Made by a program: the position numbers and the translations under genes. The notes below the pieces were generated by a model, which saw only the letters and a list, made by a program, of their open reading frames with translations, was not told the origin of the DNA and searched no databases. Below, piece by piece: positions 2,741 through 51,775 of a stretch of DNA of 64,000 bases. Within the stretch, counting starts at the first letter, position 1. Every line of letters begins with the position of its first letter. Origin of the DNA: Microvelia longipes (Eukaryota > Arthropoda > Insecta > Hemiptera > Veliidae); NCBI GenBank assembly GCA_018340805.1, contig JACMZG010001908.1:37275236-37339235 (forward strand), in the 5' to 3' direction.

Positions 2741-3505
2741 TGGGTACGGGTACGGAGTACAACGGAACTTTTCCTCATCACATCGGATTCGATACGGTCA
2801 TATTCCCTACTTCGCACTCCCTTTACTCGTCCTCAGAATATACAAATCGTTAAATGTATACTGAAACACGTCTTTGAACTCACTTCGCGCGTCCTCAGAT
2901 AGTAAATAAATACATTAGTTCCATTCCTAGCAGTTACCAATCCAGGCACTGACCACACTTGATACTGCTAAACTGTAATGATCAAACAACATTAATTAAT
3001 TGTCGTATTAAAAAGAAGTTAAATTACGTGTACTTTAATTACGTAAAAGTATACACTTGTACCGAATTCCAACTTGACTGAATTTTTTTCCGATTTTTTA
3101 CAATTGTTTTAAAAAAAAACTTACAGAAGGAACTAATGTTCATAACAAAATAAAACTTGCCGCATATGTTATTTTTATGCATGATTTTTCTTCTAACTTT
3201 TTTCCGAAATTTTCGCTGAGTCATTATTGCGTCATAAAAAATATTTTTCAAATAGCACAACTACAGCTACAGACTGATTTTTGTGCAAAGTTTCAACTCT
3301 CTAGCATAAATACACTAAGAGCTAAGATGTCAACAGACACATACAAATACTCACACACATACACCAACAGAAAACTTTGTGAAAACCACTACTTAGGAGG
3401 CCTTTAAAACGCCTAAAACGGATAATTCCGGTTTCGGATTTTTTTTTGCAACCACAATAATACTTTTCCTATTTACCTACGGAAGAAATGAGGAAAAGTA
3501 AAAAT
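2741..3505 (+). repeat. R1 dispersed repeat, near-complete copy
   Basis: It starts with a GGGTACGG-type leader followed by ACTTTTCCTCAT (2767-2778) and ends with the exact inverse ATGAGGAAAAGT (3488-3499). In between are degraded versions of the two GC-rich mini-hairpin motifs near 2811 and 2885, an ACTGACCAC segment, a CATTATTGCGTCATAAAA segment and a short CA-rich stretch. The same blocks occur in the same order in at least seven other places in the window. No coding potential is seen. The inverted ends suggest a DNA-transposon-derived non-autonomous element, but the conserved leader lies outside them. Confidence 0.8.
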
Positions 3506-15407: not shown

Positions 15408-15410
15408 AGT

Positions 15411-15798
15411 GTTTTTTTTTTCCTCTAAAGGCGTCAATTTATAAAGAATTTTTTGCAAGGACTACCAGGGTTTCGTAGAGCTTAAGGTTTAAGTTTATAT
15501 CAAAAGTTATTCCGAAATAAGACATAATTACTACTATTTTGAGCTAAATGTATAACTTCCCCTGAAATGGTTTTTGCAGTGTGTGACTGTAAAAAACTCT
15601 ACATGTTTTTTTTTTCCTCTAAAGGCGTCAATTTATAAAGAATTTTTTGCAAGGACTACCAGGGTTTCGTAGAGCTTAAGGTTTAAGTTTATATCAAAAG
15701 TTATTCCGAAATAAGACATAATTACTACTATTTTGAGCTAAATGTATAACTTCCCCTGAAATGGTTTTTGCAGTGTGTGACTGTAAAAAACTCTACCA
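15411..15798 (+). repeat. Perfect-looking tandem duplication, 194-bp unit
   Basis: Copy 1 (15411-15604) and copy 2 (15605-15798) both run from a T-rich start through TCCTCTAAAGGCGTCAATT to GACTGTAAAAAACTCTAC. I found no mismatch outside the T run. It starts immediately after the M1 element. Confidence 0.93.
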
Positions 15799-20932: not shown

Positions 20933-21267
20933 TGAACTTGAGGCTCAAAACTCTCTTGAGTCATGAGCACCGCATGGGGTTGCTCCTGTACAGGGCTTAA
21001 TTTAAGCCAATCACCTCATCTCTTCCTCTTTTATGGCCTAATATCTATTAGGTTCATCCTCCTTGCGAGTTCCTACAGGTGAGTTGTCAGGCCCGCTGGT
21101 AGACACTCACCCAACTCATCACCATCTCGTCAGGTACACCGGCTACACATCTTTCCTACGTGCTAGGGCAAACCTAGAAATTATCTCTCTTAATTATGTT
21201 TATTTACTTCCTACGTGCTGGGGCAAGACTCAGACCCAGCTATTTATACCAGGTACTCTCTGTACAG

Positions 21268-21273
21268 AATAAA
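21268..21273 (+). promoter_or_regulatory. LTR polyadenylation signal
   Basis: AATAAA, about 340 bp after the TATA box. The copy that would act on the transcript is in the 3' LTR at 26695-26700. Confidence 0.5.
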
Positions 21274-26061: not shown

Positions 26062-26914
26062 TGTTGGATATTAGTCCTACATATTTATTTTGTACTTTAA
26101 ATTCATATTTTAGCGCCCTTCTTTAGATCTCTGTGTAGATTCCCCTTTTTTCTGTAAGTAGTTGGCTACACTGAAGTAAGTAAAATAACCTGTTGCTTTT
26201 AAGTTTTTGTTACCCCTCTTGAACAATGGCGTAATTTTAAGTTTTTCCGGTGTACCGTTTGACTCATTTAAGTAATGAACTCAGCATTCTTAAATTTTCA
26301 TCTCTAATTAAGTGGCATCGAAGCCTTCTCTACTGGTGTGAGTACACACTATTATATAAGTGAACTTGAGGCTCAAAACTCTCTTGAGTCATGAGCACCG
26401 CATGGGGTTGCTCCTGTACAGGGCTTAATTTAAGCCAATCACCTCATCTCTTCCTCTTTTATGGCCTAATATCTATTAGGTTCATCCTCCTTGCGAGTTC
26501 CTACAGGTGAGTTGTCAGGCCCGCTGGTAGACACTCACCCAACTCATCACCATCTCGTCAGGTACACCGGCTACACATCTTTCCTACGTGCTAGGGCAAA
26601 CCTAGAAATTATCTCTCTTAATTATGTTTATTTACTTCCTACGTGCTGGGCAAGACTCAGACCCAGCTATTTATACCAGGTACTCTCTGTACAGAATAAA
26701 AGAGCATACAACTACTGTTGATTTATGATAGTCTCTTTTGAGTTTAATTATTTACACAATATATCTTATGTTAACTTATTTGTTTCGTTTTTATCTCTAT
26801 TATGGGTTCTAGTTCATACCACCCTCTCTATCCAAATACAGTCCTACCTCTCCCTCTGGAACCAGCTCTCCCTCGAGATGTCAGTGCTAGCGAAAGCTCA
26901 CTGATCTCTTAACA
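26062..26914 (+). repeat. 3' LTR, 853 bp
   Basis: Same ends as the 5' LTR. It differs by deletions of 2, 1, 1 and 2 bp, mostly in homopolymers or dinucleotide runs. I noticed no substitution. The region just upstream (GGTTGGCGGTA) is not a classical polypurine tract. TATATAAG is at 26353-26360 and AATAAA at 26695-26700. Confidence 0.95.
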
Positions 26915-36282: not shown

Positions 36283-36500
36283 ATTTATGTCCATTCCTAA
36301 TAAGTGATGAAAATACATTTATGCCATTCCTAATAAGTAATGAAAATACATTTATGCCATTCCAAATAAGTAATGAAAATACATTTATGCCATTCCTATT
36401 AAGTAATGAAAATACATTTATGCCATTCCTAATAAGTAATGAAAATACATTTATGGCATTCCTAAAAAGTAATGAAAATGCATTTATGCCATTCCTAGGA
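36283..36500 (+). repeat. 33-bp minisatellite, about 6.5 units
   Basis: The unit contains ATGCCATTCCTAATAAG and TAATGAAAATACATTT. One frame stays open through the array and repeats an 11-residue word (MPFLISNENTF with variants). The other two plus-strand frames are stopped. It has no surrounding gene structure and I treat it as a minisatellite. Confidence 0.93.
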
Positions 36501-36950
36501 GTGAGAGCAATGAAAAGACAAAAGTATTAAATAAAATACTAAAAATCGGGTACGGGGTACCTCAGATCTTTTCATCATTGCTTCGGGTTCGCTACGGTCT
36601 TCCTCACAATTTTGGACTCGCATCAATCGTCCTCAGAATATGAATAACACCAACTTTATTCTGTGACACTTATTCAGACTCGCTCCGCTCGTCCTCAAAT
36701 AGAAAATACATTAATTTTATTTCCAGCAGTCACCTATCCAGTCACTATGACTTTGCTCGATGCTTTTTAACTTTTATGATCTAACAAAAACCGTAGATAT
36801 ACTTCACATACTTAAACGAAAATTAGTATACTTATTAATTACAAAAAAAAAGGACACACTAGTACCGAATTTCAGCTTAACGGGTTATTTTTCTATTTAA
36901 CATTTAAAAAAAACTCATACATATCAATCAATAAAAATTGACTTTTTGCT

Positions 36951-37258
36951 TATAATGAGATAATTATAACCGCTCGTCTCTGGTAAGTACTTCACATTAT
37001 ATTCTTCGGAATTAATTGAAGGTCAGAGTGAGTTCAGGCTCTGTCGGCGCCCTGATGAGTTAGACGTAACGAAACAGAGTGGGACATGACATTATGTCGA
37101 GCCATCAAGTATGACGAATGTCGAATGATGGAACAGTTCCCAGATGTAGCATTGCATTTTGCTTGTTACATTTCCTTGGTGTCTCTCACACAATTATATT
37201 GTGTGAACTATTCATGTTTTGCAAAACTCGGTAGTATCAAAATGATATAATGAGATAA
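36951..37258 (+). mobile_element. 282-bp retroposon with 13-bp target-site duplication
   Basis: The insert (36964-37245) is bounded by TATAATGAGATAA at 36951-36963 and 37246-37258. Other R1 copies have this sequence once, so the duplication and insertion are real. A long target-site duplication indicates LINE-type retroposition. There is no poly(A) tail and no open frame. It carries the hammerhead core at 37038-37080. It is a non-autonomous element of unknown family, possibly a retrozyme-like or SINE-like unit. Confidence 0.8.
37038..37080 (+). ncRNA. Hammerhead ribozyme, complete core
   Basis: Stem III 5' strand CTCTGT (37039-37044) is followed by C17 (37045), giving a GUC cleavage site. 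Then come GGCGCC (stem I, 37046-37051), CTGATGA (37052-37058), stem II GTTA-GACG-TAAC (37059-37070), GAA plus A15.1 (37071-37074), and CAGAG (37075-37079), which completes a perfect 6-bp stem III extended by one G-T pair. All conserved core bases are present. Stem I is a 6-base palindrome with no loop, so cleavage would need two molecules paired through GGCGCC, as proposed for other minimal hammerheads with a palindromic helix. Activity is inferred. Confidence 0.8.
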
Positions 37259-37470
37259 AACATGGCACATAAGTAGGTTTTATTGAAATATGGAAATATG
37301 TTTCCGCATTTTAAGAATTTTTAAATTTTTGTTGGTCATAACTATAGTTTCTAGTTATAAGGCACAACTAGACCGAAATATTGATTTTCGTACCAAGTTT
37401 TAATTCTCTAGCATAAATAAACGGTAATAGTTTTATATTTAAAACGTCACTGACACATAAACGCTTACTT

Positions 37471-39632
37471 CCAGAAGCAGTTTATATTTTTTTTTTTATA
37501 TTTTATAATACATATTTATCATTAAAACATTAAACAGGAATAACTTCATGAATAATAGACTTCCATATTATTCCATAATCTTAATTAAAAACAAAAATAA
37601 CAATAAAAGTTGTAAAGAAAAAGAACGAAGTCATAACTGACGTAATGCAATAAACAATATACTTAAGCATCATCAGAGAAAAGATGTGAAATGAGTATTA
37701 AATTAAACCGAATTATCTGGCTAATAAAGACTTCACAAATAAAGAAAATGGGGAGAAATAAACAAAAAATTAACTTCCATTAAAAATCAATTAGGACCAT
37801 TATAGATGTTTTATTAAATACTTCGGATAAATATGATTGTTTAAGACGTCTAAAATAATAAATAAAACATTTATTTATCAATTTTATAGGTTCCTTGCTG
37901 TTTCTCTTTTAATACTGATCAGGCCATATTAGTAATTTTAGTAAAAATAAACTACTATAAAATGAACGTGAGATAAAAATACTTTTATGTATTTTATCTT
38001 CATTAGTGATGTAAGAAACATAACCAATATTTTAGAGTGGATTTACTAGGACCAGAAATGGAGGAGATCCACTCAAGTTGCAGGTTGCTGGTCAAATAAA
38101 ATAACAAAAATATATAAATTATAAAATAAGAAAATCAGCATTTTTATATAAAAACCACATCAAAAGGTCTATATTTTGTAAATTTAACAATTAAAAATAA
38201 GGAACTAATCAAAATTACATTTCAGGCTATTTGTATTTAAGATTACTTGTTTCTGTGTTTTCACATTTACTACCATATAGCATCTTATTTAGGCAATTTT
38301 TTCTTGAATTAAAATTAATCATTAACTTTTTAAAATCTTATTAAAAAACTGTCAAATAAAACATGTATCTTTATGATAGAGAAGAACAAAATCGACGCAT
38401 GCCTAGACAAATCGATAATTTGGCGATCGATTAAGGTTTTAATTAAGTCAGGTTAAATAGTTGATTATCATATCGATAATGCCCTCGATGTCGATAAAGT
38501 TGTCTCCATATTTAGGTTATCCAAAATATAAGTTTTCACCTGTATATATAATGCAAAACACATAACCTACTAACAAAAAATTATGTTTCTTTAGCTAAAG
38601 ATCGGGAGTTCCTCTGTACGAAAATGATTTTTTCGTAATCCTACAAGAGTGTCAGAGAGTTAGTTATCTCTGAGTGAGATAAGAGGAAATGCGCGGAGGA
38701 GCCAATATACTCGCTGGGTAAATACGGCGCGCCAATTATCAGAAAATTTCTACCTAAACATGACATCTTATCTATATTTACGTTGAAATTAACTATACAT
38801 TAAACTAAAGACATAATACAAATAATAATACATGCTAAAATCGACGTACTACTGAACTTGACTTATTACATGACTTAATAAAATCATGACATACAACGCG
38901 TGGGTGAACAATTAAAATTAATTTGTTTGCTATATTTAAATGTCACATATACATGGTCGAAATAAAAGAAAATTAAAAGAAAGTGTTCCATATCTTAAAT
39001 AAGGAGTATGCTAAAAAATACAATTCTACCATCGACTCGCAAAAAATAAATATTAATAAATAAAGAAGGTAAATATTAAAAGGGCCGATAGAGTTTTCTC
39101 ACAGGGAAATATGGAAAAAAATCCAATTCTGTTTCCAACTTTTTTCTGGATCAGGAAGAGGAGGGGGTAGTATGTGGAGAAAAATTTACATAATTGACTA
39201 GAATGGGGGTTATATTGAAGGTACTCCTCACCCAAAGCCTTCCAGATTATAAATATAAAATTGGAGTGCACATTTAATTATAAAACCAGGGTATTTCCCA
39301 TGGGTTCTGTCTCCACTCTGGTACCTACCTTTTTTTGGTACGCCCTCAACTCCCTCCCTGGATTCAATTATATTTTAAACATTTAAGAATAGGAAAAAAC
39401 CCTCCACTCCATCAATTATTAGTTACTACCTTTTTTCTCCAAGGTGATTCTTTTTTTTATATTACTCCTTTTATATTAGGCACCAGGAAAAAGTTTATAC
39501 AACAATAAAAATTGTAACATATTTTACTATGAAGTCCATACATAAAGCTTATAATATGCTGTAAATTCAAATGAATTTATTCTTTTATAATTTTTAGCAT
39601 CTCATGAGCTTATTTTATTTCATACAATATCT
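37471..39632. other. Unique AT-rich segment
   Basis: No gene or repeat family could be supported. Confidence 0.5.
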
Positions 39633-45537: not shown

Positions 45538-45810
45538 ATGTTTAATTTCATCAGAAATTAATGAAACTTATTACTTAAATTTAATTTTAGTTTAAATAAA
45601 GATATTTTTTAACCACTCACTTAATGAATTGAGTGGTTTTGTATCGATTTAACAAAATACATTTATTTTGAGATTTAAATGACAAAAATAAGTATAACAG
45701 CTTAGTCACTCTATAAAACAGTGAGCTCAGCTGTTTTTTTTAGTTTTTACAAGATTTAATTTTTTTTATTCTTGACTAAAGACTTTCACTTTTTGTTATA
45801 TCATAATAGT

Positions 45811-46032
45811 TAAGCAGCATCAAGCAAGGTCAGTACAAAGATAGGTGACCGCTGTAATAAAAAAAAATGCATTAGCAATCTGAAGACGAGCGAAGTAAGT
45901 CCGAAGACGTGTTGGAGCATAAATTTGGTAATTTTCATATTTTAAGGACGAGCGAAGCGAGTTCGAAGTAGGGAGGGGAGTGTAGCGAATCTGATGGGTT
46001 AAGGAAAGTTCCGATACCCCTTACCCGATTTT
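45811..46032 (-). repeat. R1 5' part
   Basis: The ACCTATCTTTG/GGTCAGT block, then two mini-hairpin motifs, including GGACGAGCGAAGCGAGTTC (45946-45964), and the CCTTACCCGATTTT end. Confidence 0.75.
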
Positions 46033-46090
46033 TTCCCTTCTGGAGTTAAAAGTAATAAATAAATAAATGTATTAATAAAATAGTTATTTA

Positions 46091-51514: not shown

Positions 51515-51775
51515 CTATATACACTAGTTTTGTTTCTACGGTATAACTGTGTAGTTGGATCTTTAAAGTTAATCAGCGTCGAGCGAGTTCAGTGCCTAGA
51601 TGGGTTCCTGCAATTATTAAAACAAATTTATTTACAATTTTAGGACGAGCGAAACGAGTCCGTAGATGTGTTGTAGTATACAAATTTGGAGGTTTTTATA
51701 TTCTGAGGACGAGCAAAGTGAGTCCAAAGTAGAGAGGATGAGAGTAGCGAGTCCGAAATTTGAGGAATAGTTTCG
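50904..51775 (-). repeat. R1 copy with TA expansion
   Basis: TTTACTTTTCCTTTATTTA start, CCAGGATTTCACCTGAATT and CCGTTTCAGGTG blocks, and hairpin motifs near 51643 and 51708. A TA tract (51438-51511) sits inside, and a short ATT-rich insert lies near 50940-50980. Confidence 0.8.

Follow-up and report, generated by a model that had tools for sequence, protein, structure and literature searches.

A 64,000-nucleotide stretch of the Microvelia longipes assembly (hereafter the window) contains a hammerhead ribozyme that belongs to an abundant retrozyme family. The sequence-only reading of this locus had the core and the layout of the motif right, but the motif is not an isolated one, and the anatomy of the insertion that carries it had been missed. 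We consider it probable that the family is a non-LTR retrozyme whose hammerhead, of type III layout, is completed only by two copies, via helix I and two helices III, and that it forms RNA circles and spreads in the manner of Penelope-like elements (PLEs).

The hammerhead and the insertion that carries it

Judged by its letters, the hammerhead at 37038-37080 is real, and we regard this as confirmed. The parts listed in Table 1, read in order on the + strand, include every letter of the known core (CUGANGA, GAA, UH, G10.1-C11.1 and A15.1-U16.1). The GUC triplet, the four pairs of helix II and the six Watson-Crick pairs plus terminal G-U of helix III are all as first described. An Infernal search with the Rfam models, one of the checks that had been proposed, matched RF00008 (Hammerhead_3) at exactly the coordinates of the motif (37.0 bits; E = 2.4e-4, reckoned for 64 kb x 4227 families), which bears out the type III layout. 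Yet this score misses the curated gathering score of 48.5, so that the motif is not filed as a member of RF00008; the shortfall is probably due in part to the absent loop of helix I. Rfam listed no second hammerhead on either strand of the 64-kb window at E up to 3, and the pattern CTGATGA-N6..20-CGAAAC matched once in the window and in none of 100 dinucleotide shuffles. When the same letters were read, by eye, as a type I hammerhead, the next usable GUC after GAAAC gave no helix I with the letters that precede CTGATGA, and this reading was rejected.

Table 1. Features of the insertion, its ribozyme and its host repeat (positions within the window)
Feature	Position	Strand	Basis
Retrozyme insertion, 282 bp, permuted monomer of a ~316-bp unit minus ~34 nt	36964..37245	+	empty site, direct repeats, consensus
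Target-site duplication, left, TATAATGAGATAA	36951..36963	.	empty site and direct repeats
Target-site duplication, right, TATAATGAGATAA	37246..37258	.	empty site and direct repeats
Older dispersed repeat, recipient of the insertion, left part	36540..36963	.	other window copies, pieces 65-80% identical
Older dispersed repeat, right part	37259..37480, outer limit approximate	.	joined flanks match another copy
Hammerhead ribozyme, type III layout	37038..37080	+	all core letters; RF00008 match below gathering score
Helix III, 5' arm, GCTCTGT	37038..37044	+	pairs with 37074-37080; kept in consensus of 26 tandem units
C17, predicted cleavage 3' of this base (GUC)	37045	+	place in the hammerhead core
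Helix I, GGCGCC, self-complementary, loopless	37046..37051	+	sequence; genome-wide exact layout; 6-nt spacing in fetched copies
Core strand, CTGATGA	37052..37058	+	sequence and RF00008 match
Helix II hairpin, GTTA-GACG-TAAC	37059..37070	+	sequence and RF00008 match
Core strand, GAA	37071..37073	+	sequence and RF00008 match
Helix III, 3' arm, ACAGAGT	37074..37080	+	pairing partner of 37038-37044

The core had been called very unlikely to arise by chance, and the strongest argument for this is its copy number in the same genome. Over the 664.6-Mb assembly (1470 contigs, both strands), a 24-nt core with up to 3 mismatches gave 4923 + 5215 = 10,138 matches. The exact arrangement GTC-GGCGCC-CTGATGAG-N10-CGAAAC, with helix I as the loopless palindrome that the sequence-only reading had recognised, occurs 1841 + 1957 = 3,798 times. 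The reversed-pattern controls gave 0 matches in both searches.

The two copies of the target-site duplication are perfect over 13 bp. Once 36964-37258 is removed, the two flanks together match 44322-44268 on the - strand right through the junction (46/56 identical), a copy that represents the empty site. The window insertion is identical to the family consensus at 271 of 282 positions (96.1%), with about 34 nt absent, and the BLAST match to the consensus (36969-37249) runs from unit position 240 through 316/1 to 203. As the host-repeat copies compared in the window have diverged by 20-35% and the 13-bp duplication is intact, the insertion is probably much younger than the repeat that received it. 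Further copies of this repeat lie at 2747-3118, 44680-44268, 45790-46033 and 51554-51757 (69-73% identical), and a 33-bp tandem repeat of 6.5 copies adjoins it at 36283-36497. Its resemblance to 5S rRNA, seen by eye, was dropped after Rfam gave no confirmation. A hairpin spanning the joined ends of the insertion was also rejected; it was no better than controls, and it is there that the ~34 nt are absent from the window copy. Pfam found nothing in 10 window ORF pieces, taken from 76 stop-to-stop pieces of at least 70 aa. Elsewhere in the window there is a tandem duplication of a 194-bp unit (15410-15796, 100% matches), and two open stretches 5.4 kb apart (21042-21269 and 26470-26718) have their first 60 translated residues in common, in a region of strong AT skew.

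The retrozyme family and proposed pairing between ribozyme copies

We fetched 60 regions of the genome, 59 around exact core matches and one beside a listed array, a choice by which the sample leans toward young, core-bearing copies. The ~316-bp units of the family stand singly or in head-to-head pairs, and many copies lie in tandem arrays. The 26 complete tandem units in the first 20 fetched regions (304-320 bp) gave a consensus of 316 nt with 42% GC, to which they are 92-100% identical. A set of 121 fetched copies was found through the sequence 3' of the ribozyme beside a core-like stretch, with up to 6 errors allowed. The core, whose loss from other genomic copies the sequence-only reading had considered, is kept in 106 of these; GTC with a palindromic hexamer is present in 72 (GGCGCC in 70) and the exact 43 letters in 55. 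As the regions were mostly picked by an exact core match, 106/121 and 70/121 are upper estimates.

Of the 108 fetched copies with the upstream arm in reach, 94 have 6 nt between C17 and CTGATGA; the longest such spacing is 11 nt, and none of these 108 copies was seen to have a normal, looped helix I. On this comparison of copies, the loopless palindromic helix I is the layout of the family and not a local deletion. Hexamers with a first letter other than G occur in 94 + 106 = 200 copies genome-wide. Among the 100 of these that were listed, most resemble drift from GGCGCC, AGCGCC being common, and five, counted by eye, have AGCGCT, a palindrome reached by two compensating changes. These are too few for claiming covariation, in one family with one consensus hexamer. 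The letters of helix I differ from the consensus by 5.0% in the fetched copies, compared with 2.9% in the rest of the unit and a CpG average of 5.3%; the value for helix I is thus close to that for CpG, and these copies give no sign of a special constraint on the palindrome.

The size and GC content of the unit lie within the bounds used for metazoan non-LTR retrozymes (150-450 bp and below 50%), and its duplications are longer than 4 bp, both in the window and among sampled insertions, where 23 of 57 have at least 9 bp. The hammerhead has the type III layout and not type I. As size, GC content and duplications fit while the hammerhead type and the RF00008 score do not, we regard the family as a retrozyme variant and not a typical member. 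No relatives were found in viral contigs or in phages and plasmids. The spacing GTC-N6-CTGATGAG-N6..14-CGAAAC occurs in 48 stretches of viral contigs, several of them mutual near-copies; none of the 48 has a palindromic hexamer, and their helix III has at most 4 pairs. Two bacterial matches in a collection of genome contigs, where Rfam gave no hammerhead, were taken for chance.

As had been argued from the sequence, helix I cannot close within one copy for want of a loop, and only helices II and III can form there; the usual contact between loops I and II is absent for the same reason. The two partners had been thought to be joined by six G-C pairs, but these would not be the only joining pairs. 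Should the GGCGCC hexamers of two copies pair, the order of the hammerhead strands would force each CUCUGU onto the ACAGAG of the other copy, so that by our derivation the helices III are also formed between copies, with 6 + 7 + 7 pairs. The resulting symmetric double hammerhead, with 20 intercopy pairs, has an energy of -29.5 kcal/mol against 2 x -11.2 for the monomers, and in tandem transcripts it is nested and needs no pseudoknot. In the co-folding of two copies, which had also been proposed as a check, the double hammerhead is not the best predicted fold, as another dimer fold of the 43-nt sequence is better (-32.0 kcal/mol). For a two-unit transcript, the minimum free energy lies 14.3 kcal/mol below the energy of the double hammerhead (-156.4), and two separate local forms with helices II and III (-157.0) cost 13.7 kcal/mol. 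The dimer is thus not favoured by folding energies, in a model that gives no credit for the hammerhead core. The local form costs 9.3 kcal/mol in a one-unit transcript. The consensus circle is more self-paired than its shuffles (z -2.4, 3/200), as is the window insertion (z -2.5, 5/200); retrozyme circles are described as self-paired in the available text of PMC7229834.

These data bear on two other explanations of the palindrome. A perfect hairpin always becomes a palindrome when its loop is lost, so that an ordinary type III hammerhead might have lost the loop of helix I and left a dead element; hammerheads that lack the loop-loop contact are indeed slow (PMC6155905, available text). We hold this to be very unlikely, since the exact loopless layout is found 3,798 times, the 6-nt spacing is so widely kept and array units reach 100% identity to the consensus. 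A variant of the same explanation is that the loop may have been lost in an ancestor, before amplification. Alternatively, each copy might cleave slowly as a monomer, with helices II and III local and only a single G-C pair, closed by GCGC, left of helix I. The seven pairs of helix III and the four of helix II can indeed form locally (-7.0 kcal/mol for the 43 nt), and in the two-unit transcript two such forms match the double hammerhead in stability. But the single helix I pair, the only one possible, is unfavourable (-4.8), the 43-nt monomer prefers another fold without the core (-11.2), and we judge monomer cleavage to be distinctly unlikely.

Insertion ends and Penelope-like elements

When the unit was compared by BLAST with the window and the fetched regions, 134 pieces were obtained and grouped into 72 insertions. 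Of these, 38 are simple head-to-head insertions; a head-to-head junction is present in 45 and a tail-to-tail junction in 3. The outer 3' ends (n = 89) gather at two sites about 43 nt apart, with 37 at unit positions 150-170 (site A), 43 at 193-213 (site B) and 9 elsewhere. Where an uncut insertion has a 3' end at both sides (n = 32), the combination is A+B in 24, A+A in 2 and B+B in 1, with another end in 5; the A+B pairing in 24 of 27 compares with an expected 50% (p = 2.2e-5). As seen by eye, site A coincides with a small hairpin rich in A and C. Among 57 uncut insertions, 23 are flanked by repeats of at least 9 bp (a TA run in one case), compared with 1.8% of 3353 mismatched flank pairs; the other 34 have no repeat of this length. 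Such repeats occur in 18 of 30 insertions of the simple head-to-head subset, while 27 of the 57 do not have this simple form. A stricter test, with no overlap with the BLAST ends, gave repeats of at least 8 bp in 12/57 versus 3.5%. The flanking repeats are 83% A+T and the window about 70%, which is a weak test of the AT-rich targeting of PLEs.

The inner 5' ends are scattered along the unit (KS p = 0.12) and do not accumulate at the cleavage site, where 1 of 92 lies within 3 nt and 1.7 are expected. The cleavage site is crossed by 61 of the 101 pieces with an end at site A or B, a share that is raised by the core-based choice of regions. As the 5' ends are spread and pieces cross the cleavage site, the linear cleaved monomer was not the main RNA to be copied; circular or multimeric RNA would fit.

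The same genome contains the reverse transcriptase and the GIY-YIG endonuclease of PLEs, and the head-to-head form with a one-sided tail that marks PLE-type insertion is seen in the retrozyme (head-to-head in 45/72, A+B in 24/32). A pattern that we take to represent the PLE reverse-transcriptase motif has 36 matches in the genome. RVT_1 was listed in 7 of 10 PLE-type ORF pieces, in 5 of them above the cut-off, and GIY-YIG in 1 of 10 (22.9 bits, cut-off 22.6). Compared with 20 PLE-type loci, the consensus unit matched at one only, in a nearby fragment. A truncated retrozyme fragment (2598-2787 of one fetched locus, 86% identical) ends at site A and adjoins PLE-type sequence with hammerhead-like motifs. 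Candidate minimal hammerheads with a short palindromic helix III were noticed by eye in some PLE-type loci; Rfam reported none in six such loci at E up to 0.5. Also in this genome, four COX1 matches lie ~15.0-15.1 kb apart on one large contig (at about 11.66-11.71 Mb), to be explained either by mitochondrial genomes in tandem within the nuclear assembly or by misassembly. A COX1 reading frame of the assembly (invertebrate mitochondrial code), taken from a copy in a large contig, is 96% identical to water striders such as Gerris, Aquarius and Esakia, which suggests that the host is a gerrid or closely related to gerrids.

According to the text available for the sources, PLEs of a rotifer have head-to-head pseudo-LTRs, one with an optional 31-bp tail, and 8-10-bp duplications (PMC3846280). 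In the PLE of the anole, both target strands are cut and extended, and reverse transcription starts internally at two sites that bound the tail and an AC-rich stem-loop, the two strands being alike (PMC11167929). PLEs and Terminons are named only as likely candidates for mobilising animal retrozymes in the review PMC7761336.

For the retrozyme we infer dimer cleavage, RNA circles, a one-unit circle that is silent, and PLEs as partner. Neighbouring copies of a multimeric transcript would pair, GGCGCC with GGCGCC and each CUCUGU with the ACAGAG of the other, and the double hammerhead would cut both copies after GUC. Monomers would then be circularised by a host ligase, and a one-unit circle, having a single ribozyme copy, would be catalytically silent. 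A Penelope-type reverse transcriptase/endonuclease would cut both target strands. Reverse transcription would begin inside the unit at either of two fixed positions, near 161 and near 204, usually one per target end, and on a template that is circular or multimeric it would continue past the site of ribozyme cleavage. A fuller version of this model is more tentative, with the balance leaning slightly against it: the hammerhead would be an obligate dimer on a palindromic helix I, the number of copies per RNA would gate cleavage, PLEs of the same genome would have the mirror design (a palindromic helix III), and PLE machinery would copy the retrozyme from the two fixed sites, one per target strand.

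Two further explanations concern the role and the origin of the ribozyme. PLE machinery might spread the family from uncleaved multimeric transcripts, with the hammerhead as a passenger that has no role in mobility. The insertions that cross the cleavage site and the 5' ends without pile-up agree with this; in the anole PLE, ribozyme mutants left insertion in vitro unaffected, the ribozyme cut only when protein was added, and no reads were found at the cleavage site (PMC11167929, available text). Against it, ribozyme positions outside CpG vary by 1.6% and positions elsewhere by 2.75% in the fetched copies, a weak difference in regions chosen by an exact core, and a passenger hammerhead strikes us as rather unlikely. 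That the family is instead an integrated viroid-like or HDV-like RNA is extremely improbable. Type III hammerheads are known in viroids and in HDV-like RNAs of termite and toad (PMC7936874, available text), and the unit circle is self-paired, but the hammerhead is listed on one strand only (both were scanned), the genome holds thousands of copies as well as arrays, and the phage and viral collections searched gave no match.

Comparison with known systems

In the literature searched, which omits most subscription papers, we found no description of an obligately dimeric hammerhead with a loopless palindromic helix I, which is no proof of novelty, nor of two such end sites in retrozymes. The obligate helix I dimer, if true, would show that hammerheads have arrived at dimerisation in a further permutation, and would explain how a circle could escape being cut again. 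The insertion ends make the question of what mobilises retrozymes testable, as the sampled young copies have two preferred starts of reverse transcription and a one-sided tail, as in PLEs. Minimal hammerheads of PLEs and Terminons are reportedly the subject of Lunse 2017 and Cervera 2014.

The comparisons below follow the portions of the cited papers that were available. Like metazoan non-LTR retrozymes (PMC7229834), the family has tandem units a few hundred bp long, a GC content below 50%, duplications of more than 4 bp and a proposed circular RNA, and cleavage as a dimer is known from the amphibian members (PMC7229834). The hammerheads of these retrozymes are of type I, and in some of them helix III is weak (PMC7229834); the present family has the type III layout with a loopless helix I. 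The type III hammerhead, the lack of autonomy and the proposed circular RNA are shared with plant LTR retrozymes (PMC7761336, PMC7229834), which differ by their LTRs, PBS/PPT, looped helix I and duplications of 4 bp compared with the 13 bp found here.

In the literature examined, dimeric hammerheads share helix III, with the exception of a proposal for cave crickets in which stems I and II are formed between copies (PMC2837043). The minimal hammerheads of PLEs and Terminons (PMC7761336, PMC6466107) resemble the present one in having one helix too short to stand alone, a palindrome and a proposed tandem double hammerhead. In them the palindrome is in the short helix III and helix I is open (PMC7761336, PMC6466107), whereas here helix I is palindromic and helix III is open, with 7 pairs. 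The repeat-type hammerheads of Aedes and others (PMC3088659) are likewise found in an insect repeat with a palindrome that would allow a hypothetical dimer, but there the palindrome sits in stem/loop III. Two tandem copies also act together in the double hammerheads of ASBVd and newt satellite RNA (PMC6155905, PMC6466107), which, unlike the arrangement proposed here, merge their helices III. Partly similar is the exception mentioned above, pDo500 of Dolichopoda cave crickets (PMC2837043), an insect tandem repeat with a proposed double hammerhead. pDo500 also folds singly, its stem III is local and its repeats are about 500 bp long.

The insertions themselves are like those of PLEs (PMC3846280, PMC11167929), with head-to-head ends, an optional tail of 30-40 bp at one end, short duplications and two internal starts of reverse transcription. 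Unlike PLEs, the 316-nt unit is too short for a reverse-transcriptase gene, and its sites A and B are separated by about 43 nt. The start sites of the anole PLE are the same on both strands (PMC11167929), whereas the retrozyme usually uses one site per end.
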